A stretch of DNA of 60,000 bases from assembly GCF_026151205.1 (NCBI RefSeq), contig NC_087082.1:19928494-19988493 (forward strand), written 5' to 3'. The position numbers and the translations under genes were made by a program. This document shows positions 3,661 through 59,555 of the stretch, in pieces. Each line of letters opens with the position of its first letter. Position 1 is the first letter of the stretch. The notes beneath the pieces were generated by a model, which was given only the letters and a program-made list of their open reading frames with translations, made no database searches and was not told where the DNA came from. The stretch comes from Bolinopsis microptera. Taxonomy: Eukaryota > Ctenophora > Tentaculata > Lobata > Bolinopsidae.

Positions 3661-4144
3661 TACAAGATTGATATGGAAAATACTGAGTTCTCTGGTTACT
3701 TACTGTGTTTATACTATGTTTACATAGTTACCAGGTTCGTTGGGTCTAGGTTAATTAGAATACATAGTTTATTACATAAGTTTACGGACATTAGATTTTA
3801 TTTTGGGTGATCATCCATAAAGAATACCACATAAATCACTTTGCTTTTTTGAGGCAAGGATAGAACTTCAGCCACCCCTGCTCCTTTGGAACATGTGAAT
3901 ATTAATTGGAATCTGGAACCTGATTTTACACTTTTACTGTTGCACTACCCAACAGCTCAGGTTGTTTTACCGGGTGAAAGAGTTCGAAGTGAATGGTTAA
4001 AAGGGTACCAAATGGACGTGCCAAAGCTCCAGGGAGGGACTCTCCTGACGTTTACCCACTTATGTCGCTGGTATTGGTTACGGTGTAATCTGTTACATGC
4101 TCTTGAGGGACGGATGCGGTGGGCTGAGGTTAGTAAGGCGTTTG
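3661..4144. other. Unique spacer inside the GGTTACCA array
   Basis: About 480 bp of non-repetitive sequence separating the two array blocks. An ORF at 3886-4539 starts here and runs into the array. Its first 85 or so residues resemble no family known to me, and it stays open only because the array lacks stops. I do not call a gene. Confidence 0.4.
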
Positions 4145-5210
4145 CAGTTACCAGGTTACCAGGTTACCAGGTTAACCAGGTTACCAGGTTTACCAGGTTA
4201 CCAGTTTATACAGGGTTCCAGGTTACCAGGTTACCAAGTTACCAAGTTACCAAGTTTGACAGGTTACCTGGTAAACCTGGTAACCTGGTAACAGGTTACC
4301 CAAGGTTTTACCAAGGTTACAAGGTTACCAGTCACTTGGTCTACCTGGTTAACCATGTTACCAAGGTACAAGTTACCAGGTTACCAAAGTTACCAGTCAC
4401 CTGGGTTACAAGGGTTACCCAAGGTTACCAGGTTATTCTGTATTATCTGGTTATACCAGGTTCCAAGTTACCAGTTTTACCAAGTAACAGTTTTACCTGG
4501 GTTAACCATGTTTACAGGTTAATCTGGATACCCAAGTAACCAGATTTACCCCCAAGGTTCCCAGGTTACCAGTTACCCCAGGGTTTACCGGGTACCCAAG
4601 GTTTAGCCAGGTTATCTGGGCTTAATTCTGTGTTTACCAAAGGTTTACTAGCGGTTACATAGTTACAATGTTAACCAGGTCAAACCTTGGGTTAACTGGT
4701 TTACCTTGTTACAGGTTACCAAATGTTACCAGGTTAAACCAAGTTTACCAGGTCCACCTGGGTTTTACCAGAGGTACCAAGTTACCAGGTTATTGGTTTA
4801 TCTGGTTACCAGGTTCCCAAGTTACCAGGTTACCAAGTTACCAGGTACCTGGACCCAAGTTACCAGGTTAAATCTGGTTACCAAGTTACCAGATTACCAC
4901 GGTTCCCAGGTTACCAAGTTTACCAAGGTAGTTACCAGGTTTCGGGTTACTGGTACCGGGTTTCCCCAAGTTCCAGTTCCAAATTTTTACCAGGTTACCG
5001 GGTTACCAAGTTCCCAGGTTATTTTTTTTTCCCAAATTTACAATTTACCGGGTTTCCCCGGGGTTTACCAATTACCAGGTTCCCTGGCCAAGTTACCTTA
5101 CTGGTTACCTGGTACCAATTACGGGGTTCCCGGGGCCTTTTTCCAGGTTACCAGTTCCAGTCCCAAGTTTACTTGCACACAACCAGGGTTACAGTTAAAA
5201 ACTACAAGTT
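4145..5210. repeat. Degenerate GGTTACCA array, block 2
   Basis: Continuation of the GGTTACCA array. It is near-perfect at 4150-4260 and increasingly degenerate to the right. Inverted copies (CCTGGTAA) around 4265-4300 make local hairpins. Confidence 0.9.
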
Positions 5211-5520
5211 AGCGAGTTACTAGATAAATAAAGTAATCGACACGAACAGCCCTGCAAAGAACCAATAATTGATGAGTTGAGCAAAAAATTTCCCTACATC
5301 CCCCAAAAGAGGGAATCCTTTCCTTCAAAATTTTCGAATAATGAATGCGATAAAATTTTTACGTGTCAATTTCTTACATTATTAAACAAGAATACTAGAA
5401 AAAAACTGAACCCCCACATTTACCCAGAAAAAACACCCCCTAGCCGTGTGGGAAATTACAGTTATTGCTTATTTTTTGGGTTCGCATTTTTTCACCCCCA
5501 AAGGACGGTAATTTTTAACT
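5211..5520. other. Short spacer between array and satellite
   Basis: AT-rich sequence with no supported gene. The ORF at 5277-5522 shows no recognisable domain. Confidence 0.4.
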
Positions 5521-9683: not shown

Positions 9684-12150
9684 CTAACCCCTTATCTCCC
9701 TATCTGTGCTCTCAATCCAGGAGCCTAAGTAGATGAAATCATCTACATTTTCTATGGCTTCCCCGGATCGACTTTGTAGGTCGCTAGATCGATCCTCCAT
9801 ATTCAGTGTCATGACCTTGGTCTTGCCTTCGTTTATGTGTAGTCCCACGCTTGCTGCCGCCGATTCTACTCTGAGCAGGAACTCGTTAGCCTTGTCCATG
9901 TCCTCAGATATAAGTGCTATATCATCTGCAAAGTCCACATCGGTGATGATCTTGGGCCCCACTCTTCTGCTTTTTCTACGTTCGAGGGTGAGTCCAAGTC
10001 GCTCCGCATCATCGCCTATGGCTTGCCTCATACAGTAGTCGATGACTATTGCAAAGAGGTAAGGTGCTAAGGTATCACCCTGTAACACACCTGCAAGTAT
10101 CTCGAACAATTCAGTTTCTCCGTCTGGAGTTAGGACTTTGGCCATTGTCTTCTCGTACATGAGCCGTATAAGCTGCACGATTTTGACTGGAATGCCGTAA
10201 GCTTCTAGAATCTTTAGCATTTTCCCACGATGTACACTGTCGAAAGCCTTCTTAAAGTCTATAAATGTCAGAACAGCTGGCAGTTTCCGACTCTTGACAC
10301 CCTCTATAAGACGTCTCAGTACCAATATCTGTTGAGTTGTTGACCTTCCTGGTCTGAATCCATTCTGGTTTCTACGCAGAATTGTCTCGATTTCTGGCTT
10401 CAACCGGTTTAGAACCATCTTGTTTAGAGACTTGGCAACTAGGGATGACAAGCTTATTCCCCGATAGTTCATTGGTTCGCTAAGGTCGCCCTTCTTTGGA
10501 ATTGGTATGATGTTGGCAGTTGACCATTGGTCTGGTTTCTCACCTTTCAATAGAGCATTGTTACAGAAGTCTAAGACAATTTGATCAAGGTCGCATCGTT
10601 TTAAGACTTCTGGGGCTATGTTGTCGTCACCCCATGCTTTCCCTTCCTTTATGCTGGACTTTGCTTTCCTGTACTCATCCAACGTAAACGGTTCTGTTCC
10701 GATATTCAGAGGTGGGTGGACTGGATCAATATCCTCTTCCGCGTTCTCTACCGTCGGTGGTGAGCCGAGAAGAGTAGCAAAATAGTCCTTCCATTTCTGA
10801 ACCCTTTCCGTTGGTGAGTTTCCCTTGATTTTGCCAGTATATGATGGAGCTTTACCTGTGATCTTGTTGATCATGGTCCAGCTTTTAGCATGTCTGCCCT
10901 GCCAACTTGCTTCCTCCAGTTCCCGGACCTGCCCCTCCAGCAGGTGCTCTTTGGCTGCTTGATAAGCATCGCCTAGCTTCTGTTTGCCCTCTTGAACAGC
11001 TATTCGGTTGTCTTCTGTAGCATCTGAGTGGTATTTTATGCTACATTCCCTCAGCTTCAGCCTGGCAATCTCAACACTTGGAGTCGCTGAGATTTTACAT
11101 CTTTTCTTTTTCTCCTTTTCAGGTAGTAAAAGTCGAGAAGTTGTCCTATTCGCATCAATAAAGCATTGGTACCTTTCTGTTGCCGTCTGATCATCCTTTT
11201 CAAGTATGGAAAAGCGGTTTTTAACTTCCACTGTGTACCTCTCTTGTAGAGCGATATCAGTTTTAAGTTTAGACCAGTCCAGAACCGGAGCCCTCTTCTC
11301 CGTCTTGCTTATCCGTAGACTAAGCTTTACCCTTGCTACGACTACTCTGTGATCCGAGCCAATACTGTGGAAACTACCATATGCTTCGGAGTTCTTGACG
11401 GAGTTCCGCCATTTCTTCCGGCAAATGATGAAGTCGATTTGAGATTTACTTTGACTCATATCTGAGAGATATGTCCAGAGTTTACCTCTTCGCTTCTGAA
11501 ATCTGGTGTTTGTGATTTCTAGCTGTCGCTCCAACAGCATATCCTCTAGCAGTCTACCATTTCGGTTTGCTGGACCCTTGTGGAAGGATGTCCAGTTTCC
11601 TGATGATGAGACATGCGCATTGAGGTCTCCTACAACGAATAGTAAGTTGTGGGCTGGTATCTGGTCGATGGCACCACCAAGGCTGTCGTAGTAGTTTTCT
11701 GCTTCGTCGACAGTCGCCCCCTCTGTCGGGCTATAAGTCACAATAACAGTTGTGACCGGGTTCCCTGCAAAGTTGGCTACCATCGTCCTCCTGTCATGTG
11801 AGTATACACTAATCAATGAGTTGAATACTGTCTTTTTGTCCAAGACAATACCAACCCCACCAGCAGCCGCCCCATTGCTGGTTCTCCATGCCGAAGTTGT
11901 TATGAGGTGAGAGCTTCCAAGATCTTGATACTCGATTTCAGTGCTATGTACTACCCGATGCTCCTGAATGCCCAAAATATGTACGCCACTATCCCTCATG
12001 CATACACCCAGCTCATCCCTCTTGTATTGTTCTCTTATTGTTCGTACATTAAGAGTTCCTACAAGAATTTCCTTCTGGCCACGTAGTAGTAGGGTACCAG
12101 CCTTTGAAAGAGTTGGAGCAGGAGATTTGGGTGTGACCCGCCGGTCGAGA
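9684..12150 (-). pseudogene. RTE ORF: AP endonuclease plus reverse transcriptase
   Basis: Main ORF of the RTE element. It nicks target DNA and reverse-transcribes the element RNA. The open frame runs from just after a TAA near 12153; the first ATG (11999) lies inside the endonuclease domain, because the N-terminal motif GTLNVRTI lies upstream in frame, so the original start is lost or non-AUG. Endonuclease motifs in order: LNVRT, GIQEH, VVGDLNAHV, GSDHRVV. Reverse transcriptase motifs: PIPKKGD, NYRGISL, NGFRPGRST, FIDFKKAFDSVH, GVLQGDTLAP, DVDFADDIAL. The frame breaks near 9685, and the missing end is found in another frame at 9197-9604. Clade assignment rests on motif wording; no alignment was run. 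Confidence 0.9.
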
Positions 12151-14088: not shown

Positions 14089-14153
14089 TTGACCATTGAC
14101 CAACAAACTAGGACCCTGGGACCCATGAGGGGATCCCAGACTCCAGGCCGCCG

Positions 14154-14420
14154 CCAGGCGCCTACAGGTGACCTCGCGTGCAGCCATGCCCATATTTGGT
14201 TGCCTGGTTACCAGGTTACCAGGTTACCAGGCGCCTACAGGTGCACTCGCGTGCAGCCATGCCCATATTTGGTTGCCTGGTTACCAGGTTACCAAGTTAC
14301 CAGGCGCCTACAGGTGCACTCGCGTGCAGCCATGTCCATATTTGGTTGCCTGGTTACCAGGTTACCAGGCCGCCAGGCGCCTACAGGTGACCTCGCGTGC
14401 AGCCATGTCCATATTTGGTC
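14154..14420. repeat. 73-bp minisatellite with GGTTACCA cores
   Basis: Four copies of a roughly 73-bp unit containing GGCGCCTACAGGTG, CTCGCGTGCAGCCATG and CCATATTTGGTTGCC, each ending in two to three copies of TTACCAGG. The number of TTACCAGG cores varies between units. The open frames across it are artefacts of the repeat. Confidence 0.9.
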
Positions 14421-14616
14421 AATGTTTGGCCCTATTATGCCAAATCACCTCAACATGCCCAAAACCAAGATTATGGGTGCTCTACTTGGAGCTAGTGGTC
14501 TCCTGAACTCGCATATGAAATGTCATCCAGATTGGACAAAAATTATTGAGTTATAAGGCAAAAACCATAAGCCCATATTTGGACATACGCACCAAATTTG
14601 ATAGCCTTTGATCCAG

Positions 14617-15408: not shown

Positions 15409-16296
15409 GACTTACTGACTTGACTTAAGGCGGCTTCAGCGTCCGAGTATTGATGCGCTGTCTCCATAAAACTCTATCCGCCATAAGTCCGCCCATTTCT
15501 CCAGTGTCGTTGAGACCCGTGTCAGCTCGTAGGCTATCAACATAGGTCATGGCTGGTCTCCCCCTACTCCGCACCCCATGAGTTGGTTCCCAGAGTAGCA
15601 AGCGGTTTGCGACTAGTTCTGGGTGCCGGTGGATATGGCCTGCTAGTCGCATCCTGCGCTCTTGGATCTTCATGGTTGCTCTCGGTAGGTTGCCATAGAC
15701 TTCTTTGTTGGTTTTTCGCTGCTTCCAATCCACATTAAGTGCCATCCTTAGCATTCTAGTGTAGCAGCCATCAATGCGTTTCTTCAATTGCTCTGTCAAC
15801 GTCCACGTTTCAGAACCATAAAGAAGTATTGACTCCACAGTAGCAACAAATAGACGGATCTTCAGTCCTCTTCTAAGGTCAGACTTCCACATCTTCTTTA
15901 GCTTGTGGCAGGCTGCCCAAGCCTTAGCTTTTCTGACCCGCAGGTCCCTCTCTGTTGTTGCTATCCAAGCTCCAAGGTAAACAAAGTCTGTCACCTTTTC
16001 CAGCTGGTTTCCAGAACAGCTATTAAGACTACTCGCCTCCTCTGTCATGTTCAGAGTCATGAACTTAGTTTTAGTGCCGTTCATGGCTAGCCCAACACTC
16101 AGTGCTGCTTTCTCAAGCCTGTCCAGGAGTAGTTTTGCCCCTTCAATGGTATCAGTGATAAGGGCAACATCATCTGCAAACTCGACGTCTGCGATCTTCT
16201 CGGCACCAATCCTTCTACTCCGTGCAGGCCTGAGAGTGAACCCAGAGTCCGAGTCATCATCGTCTATAGACACTGTCATGATATAGTCAATCACGA
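15409..16296 (-). mobile_element. 5'-truncated RTE LINE copy
   Basis: An 888-bp RTE insertion flanked by an 11-bp direct repeat TATAACATACT (15398-15408 and 16297-16307), read as the target-site duplication. Only the end of the reverse transcriptase and the C-terminus survive, the usual result of incomplete reverse transcription. It ends about 45 bp upstream of the MYND start codon, so it sits in that gene's promoter or 5' leader. Confidence 0.9.
15425..16294 (-). pseudogene. RTE reverse transcriptase C-terminal fragment
   Basis: A 289-residue open frame starting just before the catalytic box DVEFADDVALI. It contains MTLNMTEE, YLGAWIATTERDLRVRKAKAW, LLYGSETWTLTEQL, AGHIHRHPEL and RGRPAMTYV. 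It matches the two pieces of the RTE element at 9.2-9.8 kb but is clearly diverged in protein sequence, so it belongs to another RTE subfamily. It lacks endonuclease and fingers and cannot move by itself. Confidence 0.9.
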
Positions 16297-16344: not shown

Positions 16345-17151
16345 ATGAACGATTCTGTCGGTGAAGTGTGCGGCTTCTGTGATAAAAAAGAACCAGATTT
16401 ACTGAAATGTACAGCCTGTAAATCAGCTTGGTATTGTAATGTTCAATGTCAGAAGAAGGACTGGGAAAGCCACAAACAGTGCTGCAGAAAGACCGGTACT
16501 GAGGCTAAAATGGGGCCTGAAACGGTGGCCGAAGGACAAAGTTCAAGTTTTTGCCAAGATAGGGTTTGCGCATATTGTGGCAAAACAGGGATAAAGTTAC
16601 GAAAATGTGAAGCCTGTGAATCAGCGAAATATTGCAGCCCTGTTTGTCAGAAACAAGATTGGGGGAATCATGAAAAGGACTGCCGTGTTGTCAAAGTTTA
16701 TCCAGAGAGGTTTCTTACAGATTTCCCGGATGATACTTATACAAGTTTCGATAACGTTACAGGAAAAGTGACAAAGCACCAAACATTGCCCAAAGATACT
16801 GAAAATGGTATTGGAAACTTCGTCGCAACGGAAATGTTACCTGGTTACCAGGTTACCAGGTTACCAGGTTACCAGGCAACGGAAATGGACATGATAGTCA
16901 AAATTCAAACCTCCGTAGATTTTACAATCAGGCCGAGGTTAGTAGTGTACAACGAATCAAGAGACTATTATGTAGTAATAAAGGGACACGATCGGTACTA
17001 CGATGCAATAAATGACAAGGTATTATTAGAAGGACTGCCATGTGTTCGGAAGGATCCTCGACTCAGAAAACTATACGTCAAAGCTCATCTCAATTCGGAC
17101 TCATCTCTAGATATTTACCTGGACTGCACATATAATATTAAAAAGTGGTAA
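16345..17151 (+). CDS. Protein with two MYND zinc fingers
   Basis: A 268-residue single-exon ORF. MYND finger 1 uses C9, C12, C22, C25, C31, C35, H43 and C46 or C47; finger 2 uses C75, C78, C88, C91, C97, C101, H109 and C113. Both have the YC..xCQKxDWxxH signature. MYND fingers bind proline-rich partners and occur in transcription co-repressors and SMYD methyltransferases; no SET domain is present and residues 125-268 match nothing I recognise. Residues around 161-178 come from an in-frame GGTTACCA insertion. The last 14 codons with the stop are copied downstream several times. The ATG follows a TTTGCAG, so an upstream exon spliced to this one is possible. An RTE fragment lies directly upstream on the other strand. 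Confidence 0.75.
   Translation: MNDSVGEVCGFCDKKEPDLLKCTACKSAWYCNVQCQKKDWESHKQCCRKTGTEAKMGPETVAEGQSSSFCQDRVCAYCGKTGIKLRKCEACESAKYCSPVCQKQDWGNHEKDCRVVKVYPERFLTDFPDDTYTSFDNVTGKVTKHQTLPKDTENGIGNFVATEMLPGYQVTRLPGYQATEMDMIVKIQTSVDFTIRPRLVVYNESRDYYVVIKGHDRYYDAINDKVLLEGLPCVRKDPRLRKLYVKAHLNSDSSLDIYLDCTYNIKKW
16825..16887 (+). repeat. In-frame GGTTACCA insertion with 12-bp duplication
   Basis: Within the MYND coding region, GCAACGGAAATG occurs at 16825-16836 and 16876-16887 and brackets 39 bp of TTACCTGG/TTACCAGG. The net gain is 51 bp (17 codons), so the frame is kept. The direct repeat looks like a target-site or break-repair duplication. Confidence 0.9.
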
Positions 17152-38533: not shown

Positions 38534-39952
38534 CTAGACTAGGGGAATTTCGCTGACATGTGTGTGACCAGCAAGTAGTGATCTTTCGAAGACAATATTG
38601 TTGCAGTCAAAATCTTTGATTGTCCAATCAAGCGGGGCGTGGCTGTGTTGATTATTTAATAGTGCACGTTTAAGCTTTCCCCGCAAACACATCACACTCA
38701 TGGTAAAGTCATCCATTCTAATTTTTGGAGTAATCATGTTAAAAATTTTGGTTGATCTTGTATTATGGTTATCAGGTGGGTCAGCCTGACAAATAAGTAG
38801 GGTCGGCTTCCTTGTCGAGCATGTGTAGCCTTCATGTAAGGATATTGGAGCACGAAATTTCATTATCTTGTAGAGCTCGAGGTAACAGTGGTATGTATAG
38901 AGATTTTGGATAGCTAGGATATTATTATGTTTGAATAGCGGTTTAGTATGTTCTTTCATGAAAAACTTGTTGTTAAGTCTTTGGTGCCCTATTGGTCTGG
39001 TACGTGCACAGGTCTTAAACTTATCAAGGTAAGCCTCCCTATCACCGAACATAACCCTAAGACAGTACTTCTGGGCGGTAAACAGAGAGCTTATACGATG
39101 CTTCGCTGCCCCACCCCAGACAGATATACAGTAAGAGAGATGGGATTCAAACAAAGTATAGTATAGTTGTTGATGTAGAAATTCTGGAAGGGAGCAGCGA
39201 AGTCGACATAAGGTGGAAGTGGAATGATTTAGATTTCGCTTAAGGGCTTTAATGTGTTCTTCCCATGAAAGGTTTTCATCAATTATAACTCCAAGGAATT
39301 TAGTGGATGAAACTTTTTTTATCGGAAAGTTGTCTATAGTAAGTCCTACTTCATCATCTGATAGAGTCTCTGACTTAGAACCTTTCATGGGAGGCTTGAA
39401 GTGTATGTAGCAGCACTTGGACATATTTATATGTAACTTATTTGCTCGCATGTAAGACTGCAATGATGAAAGAAGCTTATTTCCACGTTCATAGGCCTCA
39501 CGTTTTGTTTTTCCTACAACAAATATATTGGTATCATCAGCAAATGTAACAAATGATCCTAGTTTAGAACTGTTTGAGATGTCGTTCATGTAGAGGAGAA
39601 ATAGGAGAGGTCCAAGTATTGAACCCTGCGGGACACCAAATTGAATAGATAGGGTGTCTGATTTTTCTCCCACAACTTCGGTGTATTGTAGTCTATTTGT
39701 TAAGTAGCTTTTTATAAGGTTATTTGCTACTCCTCTAATTCCACAGCCCTCTAATTTTATAAGTAGTGTTGAATGGTCGATAGTGTCAAAGGCTTTGCTT
39801 AAGTCAATGAATATTCCTAGAACATGATTCTTGAGTTTAAGAGATTTTGTAATTAAATCTACAGAGTAATTGACTGCATGAGATGTAGAATGAGATTGCC
39901 TAAATCCAAACTTCGAAAAAACTTTTGGTGAAAATTTTCGAAATTTTATCAA
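38534..39952 (-). pseudogene. Jockey/CR1-like LINE reverse transcriptase, 5' truncated
   Basis: A 472-residue open frame. Reverse transcriptase blocks: GFRQSHSTSHA, FIDLSKAFDTIDH, GVPQGSILGPLLFLLYMNDI, TFADDTNIFV, RANKLHINMSKC, STKFLGVIIDENLSW, then the C-terminal LSYCISVWGG and EHTKPLFKHNNIL region. The endonuclease and first RT blocks are missing, so the copy is 5' truncated near 39950, although the remaining frame is intact and looks young. Related, more decayed copies lie at 48.2-48.9 kb and 57.5-59.5 kb. They share the HTKPLF and FLGVIIDE motifs. Confidence 0.9.
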
Positions 39953-44650: not shown

Positions 44651-45057
44651 AAAATGCCCCTTTTTAGAGTGCTTTTTCGTGATATACGGCAACACTTCTA
44701 TTGTGTTGCATTCTTAAAATTCAATTGCTGTTTGATACACACATTGCTATTATCTAACTTATTTTCAACTTGACTGTGATCAAATTTACTTTCGCATTTT
44801 GAAGATGAACTGTGCTGATTACCAGAAATTACATGTACAATACCAATAATGTGTCACTCAGCAATTAAATCGCCATTTCAGAATACAGATTACAGAAACG
44901 AGCTTCATGGCATTGATAAGCAATGAATACCCTGAAAAAGACACATAACTCCATCACTGTGAGACCTATTTGTGTTTATAAACATTTATAACCATTATTC
45001 AATGTTAAATACATATCATTTGTAAATATGTATTTAACATTAAATGTTTTGCCATTA

Positions 45058-45061
<4 letters not shown>
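44651..45061. other. Non-coding, no gene seen
   Basis: AT-rich. A segment near 44874-44975 (TTTCAGAATACAG .. CACTGTGAGAC) weakly resembles 47320-47380. Confidence 0.35.
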
Positions 45062-45429
<368 letters not shown>

Positions 45430-45852
45430 GGCGCTGATTTTTTCGGTATAGTAGTATAGTGCCGACAGAACTTTAAGAAAGTCAAATGGTAAAGGGTTTT
45501 TAAATCGGTCGGTGGTAAGTGGTTTAATTAATGGATTTGTACCACAAATGTTGCATAAAATGGCTTGAGCAGCTTAATCAAGAAAACGGTAAGAGTTACA
45601 GGGCTTGCTCTCTCTCCCATTACTGCATAATATTATGTATTGTTAGTACATATATAATATTAACACTGTCATGAATACTTTAAACTTATTAGGGGAAGGA
45701 GCGCTCAAAGCGGTCTGTTTGAACTGTAGAGAGAGTTCATACTTTCATACGACAATGTAATGCATGTTTTCAAATGTGCGGGTGTGATGCGGAGTTAATA
45801 AGGGTTAATTTCTATTGATTATTGTTTAAGATACTATTTTTTTAAATACTAT

Positions 45853-48902: not shown

Positions 48903-49879
48903 TCTATATTATATCTCAAATTCTACATCCGGTACGGCTCTGCACACATGATATCTCTCTCTGCCATGAAACATGGCTAACCTTTTAAACTATGATTTAA
49001 AACCTAAACCTAAACTAAAACGTGCTTATAATGATTCAGCATGGACTTCAAGCGATTATGACATAATGCAGCTGTCATTTGAAAACAATCCCCTTCAACA
49101 AATTTAATCCAGTGTTCTCGGCCCACAGGTTCCTCCTATTAAAAAAATTTTTGATTTTGGTAAATGTGTGCTGACTCCACCACCTATGTAATATGTATTT
49201 AACCTAATATTTAGTGTATTACAGGTAGACATTGACTTAGGTAGGTATTTTTCTCTTAAGGTAGATATTAAGAATTTGGTAAATTTCTTAATTGTATGAC
49301 TATTTCCATTATTGAGACGTTTTAAATATTTGATTTAAGAGGTTTTTTTATAGGACTGGTTCACAGTGTGAACAGATTCCAGATTTATATATATTTAAAG
49401 TGATATTTAATAAATGATTAAAAGAACCAATTTTAAAGTTGCCATAGTAAAGCCTTTAGGTCCAAAAATATACCCATTATTTTATTTGAAAATTCAATTA
49501 ATTATTATATATACAAATCAAGCGTTACATTTCAGCCATGCAAAATTACAATGACATATTTTAATATTCTAATTGAAAAATGGTGCTGCAATATAAGTTG
49601 CTTAATGTTTGGCCGGATGACAACTAACGAGAAAAATAAACTTGATTAAACATAATAATTAATTCGGCTGAACCAACACATAGCAAAAGCCACATTAACG
49701 TTGGGGCCGTCTACCAAATTTGAATGACATACAATAACAAGAAATCAAACATATCATAAATAATTATATATGGATTTTGTTCATTACAATTCCGTCACAA
49801 CTGATAGAAGAAAAAAGAAGGACAAGCAGATAGGAAATGGACGGACAGAATTGTAACCAACAAAAACACATTTCTGAAA
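48903..49879. other. AT-rich, includes 3' tail of the CR1-like LINE
   Basis: No gene. The right part (from roughly 49800) is the 3' untranslated end of the minus-strand CR1-like element; its exact terminus was not found. Confidence 0.4.
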
Positions 49880-51733
49880 CTAGTCTGGCCAGACTGTATC
49901 GGCAGCCCAGAGGTACTTGATCAGATTGGCCTTAAAAGTAGAAATCCGCTCTGACTGCCGGATACATACTGGTAGACTATTCCATTTCAGCATAGATCTA
50001 TGAAAGAAGCTATTTCGGAAGGCATCCGAGCAGGGCACAGTGGTACTCATGTAAGTTGAAGTATCCGACCTGTCAATTATTTGAGCATTGTGCCTAGTGT
50101 ATCGGGTGCCCTCTGGGCGGCATAGGACTATATAAGTAGGAAGCGAAACTGGGATTATGCTATTCACTATTTTATAGAAGGTCATAAGATCGTTATAAAT
50201 AAACTTCTGCATGACAGGGAGAATATTTAGCTTCTTTTGCTCTGTAGCAAGTTTATCGTCATTATAACTGGAGTAGGGTTCACCATTGATCCATTTAATA
50301 GCCCTCTTTTGGATAGCAACAAATTGTTGAAGATGAGTTGCAGATTGAGGGGACCATATGACAGAACAATGTTCAAATATAGACCTAATTAACGCCAAAT
50401 AGAACGATCTTTTCTGCCTTTTATCAGTAGTGAAATGACATGTTCTCTTAAGTAGTCCAAGTCTGGAGGTAGCTTTGGAAACAAGCGCTTTACATTGTGC
50501 ACCCCAATTAAACCTGGAGTTTATTGCGACTCCTAAATCTGACTGAGAGGGCACAAAGTCAATATCACTTCCAGAAAGTTTATAAAAGAAGGTATTGAAT
50601 GGCAAGTTATCCAGCACGTTTCTTTGCAGGGACACAGAGAGGGCTTTGCACTTTTGTGGGTGGAACTTCATTCGATTTCTCACTGACCAATCATACAATC
50701 TATTGATGTCATTTTGGATTATGTGATGGTCAGGGTAACCAAGAATCTCCCTCCAAATTTTAGTGTCATCTGCATAAAGGGCGATATTGGTGCCTTCAGA
50801 GACACAGGAGAACATGTCATTTATAAATATTACAAACAATAGAGGGCCAAGTATAGAACCTTGAGGGACACCAGACCGAACTGGTAGAGAGGAAGACGTT
50901 TGGCCTCCTATCACTACTTGTTGTTGTCGCCCCTCAAGATAGGACTTGATAAATTTAAGCATTAGTCCATCGACATTAAAAATATTCTTTAATTTACTTA
51001 AAATGAGGTCATGCGAAACGCTATCAAAAGCTTTCGCAAAATCAAAATATATTATATCAGTCCTGGACCTGTTGTTCAGTGCAAGTGCAAGATTGTCCGT
51101 GAAAGGTATCATTTGGGTTGTGCATGAACGTTCATTAACAAAACCGTGTTGTCGGTCATCCAACAGATCAGAACATGCAGCGTATAATGCAGTCTTTATG
51201 CACCTTTCAAAGACTTTCATTACAAGAGATGTTAACGAGATAGGCCTGTAGTTCTCAACCGAAGACTTATCGCCCTTTTTGTGCACTGGTACTACAAGTG
51301 CCAGCTTCCAATCAGGGGGTATGCATCCGCTTGAGAAGGACAGGTTAAATAGAACACTAAGTGGGTATGCAAGGCTTTGGGCACAGTTTTTGAGGACTTT
51401 CCCATGAATCCCATCAGGGCCAGGGGCCTTGTTAGGATTTAACTTTTTAAGAATCAACAGAACATCTTCTTTACTAAACACAAGACTGGAAAAACAATCA
51501 TCACGAAAATCTATGTCAATGCCATAATCGCTCTCTTGAGAAAACTGCTCATAAAAATATTCGTTAAAAAGGGCAGCTTGATCAGATGGATTGTTTCGAA
51601 AGCGATTATGATATTTAACAGTTTCAGGGATCCTGGTTGACTTTGATTTAGATTTAACGTAGGTCCAGAATTTCTTGGAGATAAGAGCATCATCGGAGTC
51701 ATCCTCAACACTGAGTCTCATTCTTTCGTCCAT
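49880..51733 (-). CDS. LINE ORF2, reverse transcriptase part
   Basis: 617 residues from the first Met; the frame is open further upstream to the frameshift at about 51865. RT blocks: NKAPGPDGIHGKVLK, PPDWKLALVVPVHKKGD, NYRPISLTSLVMKVFE, QHGFVNERSCTTQ, IIYFDFAKAFDSVSHD, SGVPQGSILGPLLFVIFIND, ALYADDTKIW, NRMKFHPQKCK, followed by the LGVAINSRFNW thumb region and a C-terminal domain. All catalytic aspartates are present (FDFAKAFD, YADD). Separate LINE family from the truncated copies at 38.5 and 59 kb. Confidence 0.93.
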   Translation of the reverse strand: MDERMRLSVEDDSDDALISKKFWTYVKSKSKSTRIPETVKYHNRFRNNPSDQAALFNEYFYEQFSQESDYGIDIDFRDDCFSSLVFSKEDVLLILKKLNPNKAPGPDGIHGKVLKNCAQSLAYPLSVLFNLSFSSGCIPPDWKLALVVPVHKKGDKSSVENYRPISLTSLVMKVFERCIKTALYAACSDLLDDRQHGFVNERSCTTQMIPFTDNLALALNNRSRTDIIYFDFAKAFDSVSHDLILSKLKNIFNVDGLMLKFIKSYLEGRQQQVVIGGQTSSSLPVRSGVPQGSILGPLLFVIFINDMFSCVSEGTNIALYADDTKIWREILGYPDHHIIQNDINRLYDWSVRNRMKFHPQKCKALSVSLQRNVLDNLPFNTFFYKLSGSDIDFVPSQSDLGVAINSRFNWGAQCKALVSKATSRLGLLKRTCHFTTDKRQKRSFYLALIRSIFEHCSVIWSPQSATHLQQFVAIQKRAIKWINGEPYSSYNDDKLATEQKKLNILPVMQKFIYNDLMTFYKIVNSIIPVSLPTYIVLCRPEGTRYTRHNAQIIDRSDTSTYMSTTVPCSDAFRNSFFHRSMLKWNSLPVCIRQSERISTFKANLIKYLWAADTVWPD

Positions 51734-51804
51734 TATATTTTTAAATTTTGTTCGAAATGCACGAAACTTTTGTTTATGAGACTCAGAGTTGCTCCCTTTA
51801 TGCC

Positions 51805-53385
51805 TTATTCTCCATTTCTCCTTATTTCGTAGGAGACGATCACATTCGGAGTCATACCATGGGGCTGGAACTGAGACTTAATGGTCTTTTTAGGGATCCA
51901 TCGGTCACAGGCTGCATCAAGAACTCCTCTGAATCGACTCCAGGCAAGATAAGGATCATTACACTCAAATATACTATCCCAATCGATGCTAAATAACTCA
52001 GAATTCAGGCCCCTAAAATTACCTTTACTATAATTAAAGATCTTTCTTTTAGGCTGCTTAATATACTTGGTCTTAACATCAATGTCAAATGTGATACAAA
52101 AGTGGTCGGACATACACATTTCGTTTTGATCTAAAACTTTAACATTCTTAATAAGGTTCTGAATGTTAGTGAACACAAGATCTAAGGTGTTGCCTGACTT
52201 GTGAGTAGGGGAGCTAATAAGTTGTGTATGTCCGAGGTCATCAGTGAGAAAATTTACAAAGCTGGAATGTAGCTGGCAAGATGACTGACCATCTGGCCAG
52301 GAAATCGAAGCTAAATTAAAGTCCCCTACCAGAATGTGTCTTTGCAACTTTCTGGCAGATGCTAACGTAACAAAATGTTTCTTGAAAGATTCAAAATTAT
52401 CTAAGCCAAGTGTTCCTACTCTATAGAATGTAGATATGCAAAAGTTTCTTCCACACTGAGTCTTAATTATGACTGATAATAATTCAGCTTGAACACTAAC
52501 CTTTGAGAACTTTAGACTCGAGATATCAATGTCTGTTCTATGGGCAATCAGAACACCACCACCGTTTTTTCTGAATTTCTTGGGCTGGGTTGCATCCACT
52601 GGATGCGATCTTAAGGATCGATCAAGCCTAAATACTTTGTATTTGTCAGGGAGCACCTCATTACTGAGAATGGAATTTTTCAGCCATGTCTCGTTTAGAA
52701 TAATGATGTGAGGCTTATGTTTGTAGATATAACCATGGAATTCATGTATCTTGGTCATATTTAGTGGTGGTGTTCCTGATGCTAGATCGCGGGTATTTAG
52801 GAAACCATGGACATTATTGTAAACAACGGATAAATTTGGTCCAGGGTTCAGTAAGGAACAATTACAAATTACTATCAGGGAAATATTAAGGAGAGATAGA
52901 AAAACCAGACCACACCTAGACATGACCCCAAGCCAGCTGCTGGTAATATTAAAAATTAACTTAACAGTCTGTTTCGGTGACATGGTAGGTGACAGTTCGG
53001 TTTTTGTGGTAGATAGCAATTTTACAGAAATTGCAGCTAAGGCTGTCCCAATGCCCCTCTCCCCCCTGTACACAAGTTTAAAGTGTCTGAGAAAAATGGT
53101 ACAAAATATTACCATAAAGTAAAGATTTATGGATGACCTCAAACATGGTACAGAGTGTATTTTAGGTTGGAGGGGAGCACTAGGTAGTATATTAGCATCG
53201 ATAGTCAAAGAAAATATATACAAAATAACATAAAAATAAAATATACCCAATAGAGCACATAACATATGACGAGACAGAAGACAGGACAACAAATTTTCCC
53301 CGTTACCTCTATTACTTTTACTGATGATAACATACCTAGAAAACATACCAGTTGCAACACGGTGTTGTTGAGCCGATATTCCCAT
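51805..53385 (-). CDS. LINE ORF2, APE-type endonuclease part
   Basis: 526 residues. The first 165 or so residues are hydrophobic and not typical of an endonuclease, so the real start may be downstream (for example the Met near SRCGLVFLSLL). Endonuclease motifs from about residue 180: LNPGPNLSVVYNNVHG, IILNETWLKNS, NGGGVLIAHRTD, HILVGDFNLAS, NTLDLVFTN and CMSDHFCITFD. It ends in a frameshift; the next residues of the conserved linker continue in the reverse transcriptase frame. It cuts target DNA to prime reverse transcription. Confidence 0.88.
   Translation of the reverse strand: MGISAQQHRVATGMFSRYVIISKSNRGNGENLLSCLLSRHMLCALLGIFYFYVILYIFSLTIDANILPSAPLQPKIHSVPCLRSSINLYFMVIFCTIFLRHFKLVYRGERGIGTALAAISVKLLSTTKTELSPTMSPKQTVKLIFNITSSWLGVMSRCGLVFLSLLNISLIVICNCSLLNPGPNLSVVYNNVHGFLNTRDLASGTPPLNMTKIHEFHGYIYKHKPHIIILNETWLKNSILSNEVLPDKYKVFRLDRSLRSHPVDATQPKKFRKNGGGVLIAHRTDIDISSLKFSKVSVQAELLSVIIKTQCGRNFCISTFYRVGTLGLDNFESFKKHFVTLASARKLQRHILVGDFNLASISWPDGQSSCQLHSSFVNFLTDDLGHTQLISSPTHKSGNTLDLVFTNIQNLIKNVKVLDQNEMCMSDHFCITFDIDVKTKYIKQPKRKIFNYSKGNFRGLNSELFSIDWDSIFECNDPYLAWSRFRGVLDAACDRWIPKKTIKSQFQPHGMTPNVIVSYEIRRNGE
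51861..51868 (-). other. Frameshift site in LINE ORF2
   Basis: The endonuclease frame and the reverse transcriptase frame meet at a GGGG run here. The conserved linker reads on smoothly in the other frame, so one base appears to be missing in the homopolymer. Confidence 0.75.
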
Positions 53386-53520
53386 GGAACTTTTAAGTAT
53401 ATTATTAACAGAATTGTGTCTCGCCGTTGTGTTTTGTTAGGTATTGTGCTATAATATGAAGTAACATACATTATGCTATCACTTCGTTTGAATACATATA
53501 AATAACATCCAAATGATCAG

Positions 53521-53596
53521 ATCCAATAGGATACTGATGCAGACAATGAAAAATTGAAATATTGACTTGGATTACCACATCAGTATCCCATTGGAT
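53521..53596 (-). promoter_or_regulatory. Hairpin spanning the ORF1 stop codon
   Basis: ATCCAATGGGATACTGATG (53596-53578, minus strand) pairs with CATCAGTATCCTATTGGAT (53539-53521): a 19-bp stem with one mismatch or wobble and a 38-nt loop. The ORF1 TGA (53582-53580) lies within the 5' strand of the stem. It could influence termination or ORF2 re-initiation; function is inferred. Confidence 0.65.
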
Positions 53597-55097
53597 TAAA
53601 CCACTTTGAGTGTATGATTCTGAGATAGAACTTTGCCAACACTGGCATCCCAGCCTTGGGGCTGGGATGAATATCATAAAAGCCCCTATTGTCACACTTA
53701 GGAAATAATCTCTCGTTTCTGTTTCCATAGCGGTCTAAGAATGCCCAAAAAACATCAAGGTAAAACAGTTTATGCCTAGAGCAGCGATCAAAGATCAAAT
53801 TATTCATAGCACAAACATTACCAGGGATTTTCTCTTGTCCGTTGGGGTGGACTGGTGGAATAGCTTGTACAAAAACACGTGCATTTGGATAAAGTTTTTT
53901 TGCTGTCTTCATAAGGTCACTCACAGGGGTCTTGAGATGATTGACCCCCTGGGTACAGTACCGGATGTCGTTGGCACCGAAGCTTAAGAACAGTTTCTTT
54001 ACCTGCACAAGAGGGTTCTTTGTATAAAAGGCCTCAATAGATTTCTGTATAGCTGAGATCTTAAGCCCACCCTTAGCTATGTTGGTGACAGTTTCTTTAC
54101 CTCTACTGAGGCGATCAGCGTCCAATCGAGCAGCAAAGGAGTCACCAGCAATGAGAATGATAGACTTCTGGTGTTTTTGAGAGTCTGTGATGGGGGCTTT
54201 TGGGGATACTTTATTAGGACTGTCGGATGTAGGAGAGGGAAGAATAGGAGATGAAGGGGAAGAGGAAGAGGAAGGTGTGGCTAACTTTCTGAAGGAGAGA
54301 CTATACCTCCAACAAGTTTCATTGTCAGAAGGTGCAACTCCTGGGGCAATCCTGTGCCTCATGACTTGCTGTGCACCAGGCTTCATGATGTTCAGTGTGC
54401 CATTGGTGGCAGGGAGGGTGAAGTCTGCGTTAATCAACTCTTGGGCTGGCCTTGACCTAGAGGCCCTAGTTGTGCGTTGTTCTACTTGGGTTGTATCCAG
54501 TACAAACTCAAGTGACCGTGGAGCTCCTATTGAGTAAGTGCAAATGGAGCTGGACTGTGATATTATTAGGTCTTCATCGTCTTTATGGAGGCTTAACTTA
54601 GCTTGCTGAGTGTCGTACCTAGTAACAAGGCAAGCATCCATGTTGTTGGTGGTGGAGGGGAGGTCATTAATAAGTCCCATCAACTTAAAGATGCTAGGGA
54701 AGTTGTTGATGGGATGTGGCTTGTTAACTATGTTACCAAAGCAGTAGTCTTCTGATGAAGGGCTTAGCCATAGGGTGTGGACTTTTTTAGATTTGCCTTC
54801 AAGATTCATTGAATCCAATTCTTCTGTGATTTTCTTGAATAGATTTTCGTCCATTCCAGGGAGGACTGGGACGTGCTCTACGAGCGCATGTGGGCTATAC
54901 GAGACATTTTGAACAGTAGTTTCCTTCTTCGTTTTCTTTTCCTTCTTCTTTTCATCTAACCGTTCTATCTTTGAAGCAAGCTTTTCCTCTTTCAGACTGT
55001 CCAGGATACTCTCAGTGAGGAGGGTATGCATGTGTTGCTTTACTTCAAGAGATAAGTTTTGCAGTAAGGCGAGGAAGTTGGCGGGCAGTGTTGGCAT
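53580..55097 (-). CDS. LINE ORF1: AlkB-like dioxygenase plus SGNH esterase
   Basis: 505 residues. 1-62: Leu-rich, coiled-coil-like, ending in a Lys-rich stretch (DEKKKEKKTKK). About 105-272: an AlkB-type 2-oxoglutarate/Fe(II) dioxygenase fold: ACLVTRYD then LSLHKDDED gives H171-x-D173; YSIGAPRSLEF is the core strand; TLNIMKPGAQQVMRH gives the distal H248; and R264-YSLSF-R270 is the R-x5-R co-substrate motif. AlkB enzymes remove methyl groups from nucleic-acid bases. 275-305: Ser/Pro linker. 310-490: SGNH hydrolase with GDS (S320), GAND (N376) and DIHPSPKAG (D475, H477). Esterase domains are known in CR1 ORF1 proteins; the AlkB domain is the unusual part. All metal and arginine ligands are present, so it may be active. 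In vivo substrate unknown. ORF2 begins about 195 bp downstream. Confidence 0.85.
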   Translation of the reverse strand: MPTLPANFLALLQNLSLEVKQHMHTLLTESILDSLKEEKLASKIERLDEKKKEKKTKKETTVQNVSYSPHALVEHVPVLPGMDENLFKKITEELDSMNLEGKSKKVHTLWLSPSSEDYCFGNIVNKPHPINNFPSIFKLMGLINDLPSTTNNMDACLVTRYDTQQAKLSLHKDDEDLIISQSSSICTYSIGAPRSLEFVLDTTQVEQRTTRASRSRPAQELINADFTLPATNGTLNIMKPGAQQVMRHRIAPGVAPSDNETCWRYSLSFRKLATPSSSSSPSSPILPSPTSDSPNKVSPKAPITDSQKHQKSIILIAGDSFAARLDADRLSRGKETVTNIAKGGLKISAIQKSIEAFYTKNPLVQVKKLFLSFGANDIRYCTQGVNHLKTPVSDLMKTAKKLYPNARVFVQAIPPVHPNGQEKIPGNVCAMNNLIFDRCSRHKLFYLDVFWAFLDRYGNRNERLFPKCDNRGFYDIHPSPKAGMPVLAKFYLRIIHSKWFNPMGY

Positions 55098-56599
55098 CTT
55101 GTTGTGAAGTGTGGGAGGATCGGGAGGAGACTGGGTGATCCGGATAAGAGATCAACAGCAGGATGTTTCAGTGGCACCGTTATAAACCCTAGCAATCTGG
55201 ATCTGAAACAGTCAATAGGCCAGAGATTTATAGTTCAGAGTGAAAAAATTTGAATTATAATGAACAGAGTTGTCGTAAAGAACTGTATAGCAGAAAAAAG
55301 AATGCAATACTTATCTAAGGGAGAAGTAGCTAAAAGGAGTTAACAAATTTCAAACATCACTAGATCTCTAACAATTAAACTAACCTCGTACCAGACCGCA
55401 GGAGCCCTGGCAGTACAAGACTACCAGGGCAATAGGAAGAAACGATTACCACCTCCACAACCTGCCATCTAACTCAGATCCATCACACCCAGGACACCGG
55501 CAGACTTTACTCCAACGGATTACTCATCGGTAGCCATGCCTAAATAAATGTATTTAATTGTAGTTGTGAAAATAGTTTAAATAGTTTATGCTCAATCAGT
55601 AGGCTGTCACTCTATTAATGCACCACACCGCTTCCTCCACTGCACTAAAAGTTATACAATAAATTCTACAATCCTAATTTTTTATCGTGATGGAGACCGG
55701 TGTCCATACAAAACATTTACTAGGTTGCCGTTTGGTGTGAGCAATAGCGAACAGCACCCACACTCCTTTGCCCCGTCAACCTATATCTAATCTATTTAAA
55801 GAGTGACAACCATACTACACATTGAATTAGGATCCCTTTAAATATCAAATTGATTTATTGTAAACTTGTTTACTCTGTAATAAATGGCATAAAATTGAAT
55901 TTTTGTTTAACTGAATTTTTGTTTAACTGAAAACTCAACTGGGCTCTCCTGTGTCACCAAACTAAACCAATAAGTAATTTTAGATTATTATATTTTTCTA
56001 TATTTGTATAATAATTATATTGACGTAGTGGATGGTTGAGGGGGTTTCAAGCACAGGTCACTCTCAAATCCTAAAGATAAGCAGTGGCCTTCAGCACTTG
56101 AAACCTCTTTAAACCTCCCCTGATTTATTTATTATTGATATTGTTTGATTGTGCCGTAAAAATAAATATTTGTTTTATTAAATATTTGTTTTATTAGTTC
56201 CAGACAAGGTCTAGGATGCTCAATAGCCTTGTACACAATCGTCGGGTTGAACCGCCTTGACCACCGTACAATCCGGTCAATAGTGTAGATTATCAGGGGC
56301 ACTCCGACCCACCAATGCGACTGAAGATTTTATGTAAGAGAAAAATAAAGTTTTCAGCCAGGTTTGTTAAAAGCAACACAGACCTGTGCCAGAACACGAC
56401 CCTTTAACAGGAATCTGACGATTTCAATAGATGGTAAAAAGCTAAAAAAAGGGCTGACGGACAACTAGGAACCTTTCGATTTTACCTAGTTAACTAATTA
56501 ACATGCAAGCTTGGGAAATCCAATCAGCTCCGACAACTAGGAACCTCTTGAGATACTTTAAACATTTCTTATCTCCAGTCAAAATATAAATCATCGGCA
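55098..56599. other. CR1-like 5' leader and non-coding DNA
   Basis: Up to about 55515 the base composition is GC-richer and probably belongs to the LINE 5' leader. The remainder is AT-rich with no ORF. A copy of TATTTGTTTTATTA occurs twice at 56167-56200. Confidence 0.4.
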
Positions 56600-58545: not shown

Positions 58546-59555
58546 TAGACGAACAGCTAAGTTGGAAAACACATTTTAATCATCTATCTTTACAGCTGAA
58601 CTACAGTATTGTATTTTTTTTATTAAATACTTTTCAAATTTTACAGAGTACAGCAATAGATGAATATAAAATAGAATCGTTCAAAATATCGCCCCCATCT
58701 GTAAAATATGATGGGCACCCAAACACGGTAAACACATAGTGAACTATGTCCGCAGTAACTTGGACCCATTACATCGAATTAATCTAAATCCAAAAATTTA
58801 TGAAAAACTATTTAATAACAAACAAATCCATGGTGAATAACAGTGGATATAGAGTCAAAATTGGTATTATCGATTAAGAGAATTTGCAAATTCATTCCCG
58901 GCCAAATCTGAACATTTGAAACTATAAAATGCTCTTTTTATGTCACATCTTAGCTATTGTATAAGTTGCTGGACTGGGATCCCTAAACATAAGCTGAATA
59001 AAATCTTTGCAATTCAAAAATGATGTATATTGTATAAGACTGCTATTTGGTAACATTCCCAATTTTGATCTTAAAGAATACTACTTAACCTGTGCACGTC
59101 CAAGAACTTATAATGACATATGGCTACTGGCTAGCAAGAAATACTGTCTTGAACACACTAAACCGCTGTTCACTGAGCAGAAAATTATGAACCTGGAGAA
59201 TCTGCACATGTATCATACATTTATGGAACTATTCAAAATTCTTAAATTTGATGTCCCCCAGTCGATTAAAGATCTTTTCAAGTTCTGTCCTAGAAATGAA
59301 AAACTTCGTCTGATTGTCCCATTACTGAGGTTAGATATCTCCCAACTGAACTTTTTGTACACCTCTACGAAAATTTGGAATGACCTCAGCCCCTATGTAT
59401 TCAAAATATGTAGTGCAAATGAAGATGGGATAATAATCCCGGGTTCTTCCAAAAATTCAGACTTATCAGCCTCGTCAGGTATTATTAAATCTAACCTTAA
59501 AAAGCACTTGCTATCCCTCCAAAATCGAGATGACCCTAATACATGGTAACTAATC

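Follow-up and report, generated by a model that had tools for sequence, protein, structure and literature searches.

Open reading frame 1 (ORF1) proteins of the esterase type (type IV), such as that of zebrafish ZfL2-1, occur in long interspersed nuclear elements (LINEs) of the CR1, L2 and RTEX groups and carry a C-terminal SGNH esterase, ahead of the endonuclease and reverse transcriptase (RT). AlkB dioxygenases include stand-alone cell proteins such as human ALKBH3 and ALKBH2 and E. coli AlkB. AlkB domains also lie inside multidomain proteins of plant RNA viruses, which are selfish elements, as LINEs are, but have no reverse transcriptase. Among retrotransposons, AlkB is so far known, to our knowledge, only from long terminal repeat (LTR) elements of orchids: the Ty3/Gypsy elements of Phalaenopsis have an AlkB (2-ODD) domain in an additional ORF, according to the available part of their description. 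Uptake of a further enzyme domain by LINEs has a precedent in insects, where a virus-derived SF1 helicase has been kept in many families (PMC5563155, available sections). Here we describe a LINE on the reverse strand of contig NC_087082.1 of the ctenophore Bolinopsis microptera, within a 60,000-nucleotide stretch (positions 19,928,494 to 19,988,493, hereafter the window), whose ORF1 has an AlkB-type dioxygenase domain before the esterase. It differs from the type IV ORF1 by this added domain, from the orchid elements because AlkB lies inside a LINE ORF1 and is fused to an esterase rather than borne by a plant LTR element, and from the insect LINEs because the extra enzyme is a dioxygenase in another host group. 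Fold and Fe/2-oxoglutarate (2OG) ligand set are shared with the cell proteins at about 20% identity over the domain. It is moderately probable that a LINE lineage acquired and kept an ALKBH2/ALKBH3-like dioxygenase before its SGNH esterase, with a demethylase role on element nucleic acid as the best explanation.

An esterase-type LINE ORF1 with a further enzymatic domain, AlkB, in animal LINEs appears to be new. No LINE with AlkB was found in the literature searched by titles and abstract openings, and a prior record in Repbase or subscription papers is possible. An ORF1 survey of 448 Jockey-superfamily elements distinguishes five ORF1 types in its available text (PMC4120745), and esterase elements have been reported in cnidarians (PMC3905857, available part); the terms 'AlkB' and 'oxygenase' are absent from the main text of both, and 'Nematostella' is likewise absent from that of the survey. 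The word 'AlkB' does not occur in PMC5563155, and the AlkB passages of PMC8857917, PMC11294593 and PMC10161547 contain no transposon-borne AlkB.

The AlkB domain in sequence and predicted fold

Sub-stretches of the 505-amino-acid (aa) ORF1 match PF13532 (2OG-FeII_Oxy_2) in Pfam with an E value of 4.8e-11 and a score of 43.7 bits, above the curated cut-off of 31.2. The match spans residues 117-270 when residues 1-286 are the query, and PF13532 is matched by 8 of 9 family members. An initial annotation had claimed an AlkB signature in this ORF1, and its motifs stand where it placed them: ACLVTRYD at residues 155-162, H171-x-D173, H248, and R264-x5-R270. The extent that it gave the domain, about residues 150-272, holds these motifs and is too short, since the Pfam match begins as early as residue 117 and the modelled fold reaches back to about residue 75.

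An independent profile, built from 13 phage and bacterial AlkBs, matches one of the 562 stop-to-stop window frames of at least 40 aa; that frame is ORF1 (E 3.2e-13). The profile sequences were gathered by a scan with one of two phage proteins, the other of which gave none. Phage AlkB matches are weak (tblastn, best E 9e-3), and neither ORF1 nor the profile of its AlkB family, used as query, found a relative in viral contigs. Compared with PDB, the family profile picks up ALKBH3 and ALKBH2, and AlkB structures with their double-stranded beta-helix can be aligned to the predicted fold. Profile and structure thus both agree with the initial annotation, which had named a missing match to 2OG-Fe(II) oxygenases, or a fold without that helix, as grounds for abandoning the claim.

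The same comparisons bear on whether the domain is an eraser of N6-methyladenosine (m6A), which would strip this mark from element transcripts to evade host RNA surveillance. The orchid Gypsy AlkB (PMC9289625, available part) is the basis of this reading, which appears unlikely: neither ALKBH5 nor FTO is listed at E<=1 when the family profile is compared with PDB, and Foldseek ranks both below ALKBH3/ALKBH2. In addition, m6A promotes L1 and ALKBH5 suppresses L1 in human cells, according to the available part of PMC7873242, so that erasing m6A need not benefit a LINE.

Several results weigh against the AlkB assignment. PF13532 is not listed for the whole ORF1 at E<=1, where Pfam returns GDSL/SGNH lipase families only. 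Comparison of the whole ORF1 as a single sequence finds no AlkB in PDB at E<=1; with the AlkB domain alone, an unrelated antitoxin (E 0.069) ranks ahead of E. coli AlkB (E 0.07). A single-sequence AlphaFold model was meaningless (predicted local distance difference test, pLDDT, 36.9) and was left unused, and the good model leans on the alignment of phage and bacterial AlkBs. The whole-ORF1 Pfam miss is not taken as absence because sub-stretches exceed the cut-off and the independent profile matches the whole frame; the domain probably escapes the routine whole-protein scan through HMMER filters. That miss and the weak single-sequence PDB comparisons could also point to chance resemblance, or to a host AlkB gene adjoining a LINE. 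The probability of either is negligible. With the 13-AlkB profile the domain reaches 47.6 bits and the highest score among 2000 shuffles is 6.9; the match is no chance resemblance. The fused ORF recurs in numerous copies across the genome and in several subfamilies, followed by LINE ORF2 frames, and this repetition refutes both proposals.

Genome copies, conserved residues and selection

The assembly searched (264.65 Mb, 232 contigs) contains at least 88 ORF1 matches (85 of 665 candidates scored). Nineteen of them, the window copy included, cover residues 1-505 at >=94% identity with no stop. Five long stretches of the window family were examined (L045, L112-L115): ORF1 is open in all five, and ORF2 is a single open frame of 1170 aa in two and reaches 866-1107 aa as its longest frame in the remaining three. 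Copies with both frames intact therefore exist. The ORF1 AlkB domain of the 13 diverged loci L031-L043 is 32-50% identical to that of the window (L031 50, L033 45, L040 36, L039 34 and L042 32%). Frames that match the window endonuclease and RT accompany it in 12 of these loci, the exception being the decayed L037. ORF2 lies in one frame in L031 (1147 aa), L038 (1172 aa), and L040 and L041 (1178 aa each), and is broken or partial in the others.

Conservation was assessed in an alignment of 37 rows (35 distinct), made up of the window ORF1 and 36 ORFs from 52 blastp rows that span residues <=110 to >=400; shorter or decayed pieces, including L036, L037 and L044, were excluded before counting. 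H171, D173, H248 and R270 are kept in 37/37 rows, and R264 (one alignment gap) and E175 in 36/37. In the esterase, S320 and N376 are likewise kept throughout, H477 in 35 rows (two gaps), and D475, two residues before H477, in 29 (eight gaps), which makes it the weaker position. Because the SGNH Asp is kept in 29 rows only, conservation is, if anything, stricter at the AlkB site than at the esterase site.

Two positions count against an active dioxygenase. Y161 is kept in 35 of the 37 rows, with Met in two, and the position equivalent to the 2OG-contacting Asn of E. coli AlkB holds T, S or I; the Asn and Tyr that contact 2OG in that enzyme are N120 and Y122. Such variation would suit a domain that has lost catalysis and serves as a nucleic-acid-binding scaffold only, as would the want of a structural RNA-binding domain in esterase-type ORF1 proteins (PMC3905857, available part). 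A scaffold would have no need of ligands kept across the alignment and in the far-diverged L116 and L117 described below, and we regard this explanation as very unlikely.

Selection was estimated by simple NG86. Ratios of nonsynonymous to synonymous change pooled over pairs of the 19 window-family copies (pN/pS) are 0.22 for AlkB, 0.18 for the esterase and 0.37 for the N-terminus. For L039 versus L040, dN/dS is 0.17 for AlkB (dS 0.79) and 0.10 for the esterase. Synonymous sites are saturated between older subfamilies, and some close pairs give uninformative or high values (L039-L042 AlkB 0.85 on 12 changes; L019-L020 AlkB 0.43 on 5). The esterase value of L031-L035 is 1.07, and the end of L035 departs. 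The copies are under purifying selection, as the initial annotation had supposed from the intact ligands.

A six-frame Pfam scan gives at least 151 PF13532 matches in the genome (150 of 587 candidates scored), host ALKBH genes and transposon copies pooled. Most of the matches listed belong to long frames, and several of these frames fall into recurrent size classes (18 rows of 551-552 aa; others of 593, 611, 644-646, 676 and 707 aa), and internal stops occur in one row alone. L116 (462 aa read) and L117 (550 aa; 170-1822), which represent two of the size classes, match PF13532 at E 3.1e-23 and 4.1e-19, respectively, and in both a sub-threshold SGNH match comes after it. Identity between L117 and the window ORF1 is 26% across 232 columns (E 2e-10), which extend from AlkB into the esterase. 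In a seven-sequence alignment neither of the two has lost the Fe ligands, the two Arg or the Ser, Asn and His positions of the SGNH domain; three of the seven sequences have the SGNH Asp aligned. A 601-base piece downstream of L117 (L118) is one open frame that matches the window endonuclease (E 1e-5) and PF14529 below cut-off (E 7e-5). The chances appear even that the AlkB-SGNH ORF1 represents a large, old LINE class with built-in nucleic-acid dealkylation, which carries most AlkB domains of the genome rather than host genes.

Two further features of these sequences were observed. In L116 and L117 the SGNH GDS motif reads SSS, and the AlkB part has an FPYxYNGG stretch. Frames of more than 3000 aa (3226-3388 aa) with an internal PF13532 occur at four places among the matches listed (e.g., C10:16875843-16876241, forward strand); these are possibly giant polyprotein elements.

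Element structure and other features of the window

The features of the element are collected in Table 1. The initial annotation called its ORF1 CR1-like, a provisional clade name, and did not mention the esterase. The endonuclease and RT parts of ORF2 lie downstream of ORF1 on the same strand in different frames, so ORF2 of the window copy is broken. The 3' tail of element copies is A-rich and variable in length. No clear target-site duplication was seen by eye when the element ends were compared with other copies, and tblastn found no second ORF1 copy within the window. The PF13472 match of the esterase lies at residues 325-481 in the whole-ORF1 scan; neither an RRM nor a zinc knuckle is listed here at E<=1. 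A 32-nucleotide imperfect inverted repeat with a 38-nucleotide loop (window 53508-53609) is located at the ORF1 stop codon, before ORF2, and could be relevant to ORF2 translation.

Table 1. Features of the AlkB-bearing LINE in window coordinates
Feature	Position	Strand	Remarks
LINE element, ~6.1 kb	49465..55581	-	Ends are where homology to other genome copies stops; approximate
Element order: 5' UTR (untranslated region), ORF1, spacer, ORF2, 3' UTR with A-rich tail	49465..55581	-	
ORF1, 505 aa, open: N-terminal segment, AlkB domain, linker, SGNH esterase	53580..55097	-	
AlkB-type 2OG-Fe(II) dioxygenase domain, residues 75-276	54270..54875	-	PF13532; PDB profile matches ALKBH3/ALKBH2; model and fold search
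H171-x-D173, putative Fe(II) ligands	54579..54587	-	Both kept in all aligned rows
H248, putative distal Fe(II) ligand	54354..54356	-	Kept in all rows
R264-x5-R270 (RYSLSFR), putative 2-oxoglutarate contacts	54288..54308	-	R270 in all rows; R264 with one gap
SGNH/GDSL esterase domain, residues 312-505, with S320, N376, H477	53583..54164	-	PF13472 E 2e-9
ORF2 endonuclease part	51805..53385	-	PF14529 E 2e-11; PF03372 E 3.5e-8
ORF2 reverse transcriptase part	49880..51733	-	PF00078 E 1.5e-30

Elsewhere in the window, pieces resembling other LINE RTs occur at 38534-39952 and 9684-11999 (25-33% identical to the RT of the AlkB-bearing element) and, by eye, at 15425-16294 and 59007-59549. Repeated-peptide ORFs of the LPGYQVTR type (3886-5212 and 14089-14556) look by eye like a minisatellite read as protein; a unit of this type also lies inside an ORF at 16345-17151 that is MYND-finger-like in appearance. 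A long open (TH)n frame at 44976-45485 is by eye a GT/CA microsatellite and no gene.

Proposed role and meaning

The intact ligands suggest that the AlkB domain may be an active Fe(II)/2-oxoglutarate demethylase. ALKBH2 and ALKBH3 remove 1-methyladenine and 3-methylcytosine, lesions that block polymerases. An ORF1 protein that binds its own element RNA in cis might likewise strip such Watson-Crick-face methyls from template RNA or single-stranded cDNA, which would keep target-primed reverse transcription unblocked. During LINE replication the RNA is copied at the target itself, and a cis-acting ORF1 protein that clears such marks would therefore help. A weakness of this proposal is that the substrate is guessed by analogy with the closest structural relatives.

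The domain may also provide a contact to nucleic acid, which ORF1 proteins of the esterase type otherwise lack. In the available part of PMC3905857 these proteins are described as devoid of a structural domain for RNA binding, and ZfL2-1 fragments purified without the arginine-rich motif did not form a stable complex with oligo-A RNA. Its authors propose the arginine-rich peptides of esterase-type ORF1 as RNA binders. This proposal weakens the case for contact through AlkB, as does the fact that the domain is not notably basic: its net charge is -2 to +5 in five representatives, and the esterase is the basic part.

A DNA substrate is the other possibility to be weighed. The domain could act on chromosomal or new-copy DNA, by repairing alkylated bases in cDNA or at the insertion site or by countering host methylation of element DNA. 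ALKBH2 and ALKBH3, the nearest solved relatives, act on DNA, and 3-methylcytosine is a by-product of host DNA methyltransferases. No AlkB enzyme is known to remove 5-methylcytosine; direct de-silencing by this route is therefore unlikely and was set aside. Intergenic retrotransposons of Nematostella are methylated above background (PMC8857917, available part). ORF1 proteins are thought to act mostly on RNA, and action on DNA seems improbable.

Of the LINE proteins, ORF1 is the least understood, and the available text of PMC3905857 raises the question of how the esterase type engages RNA. The AlkB domain offers concrete, assayable chemistry with which to ask whether a LINE must clear methyl marks or damage from its RNA template before copying. 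Its occurrence in many animal-LINE copies under selection suggests that base methylation may be a real obstacle to LINE replication or a part of host control.
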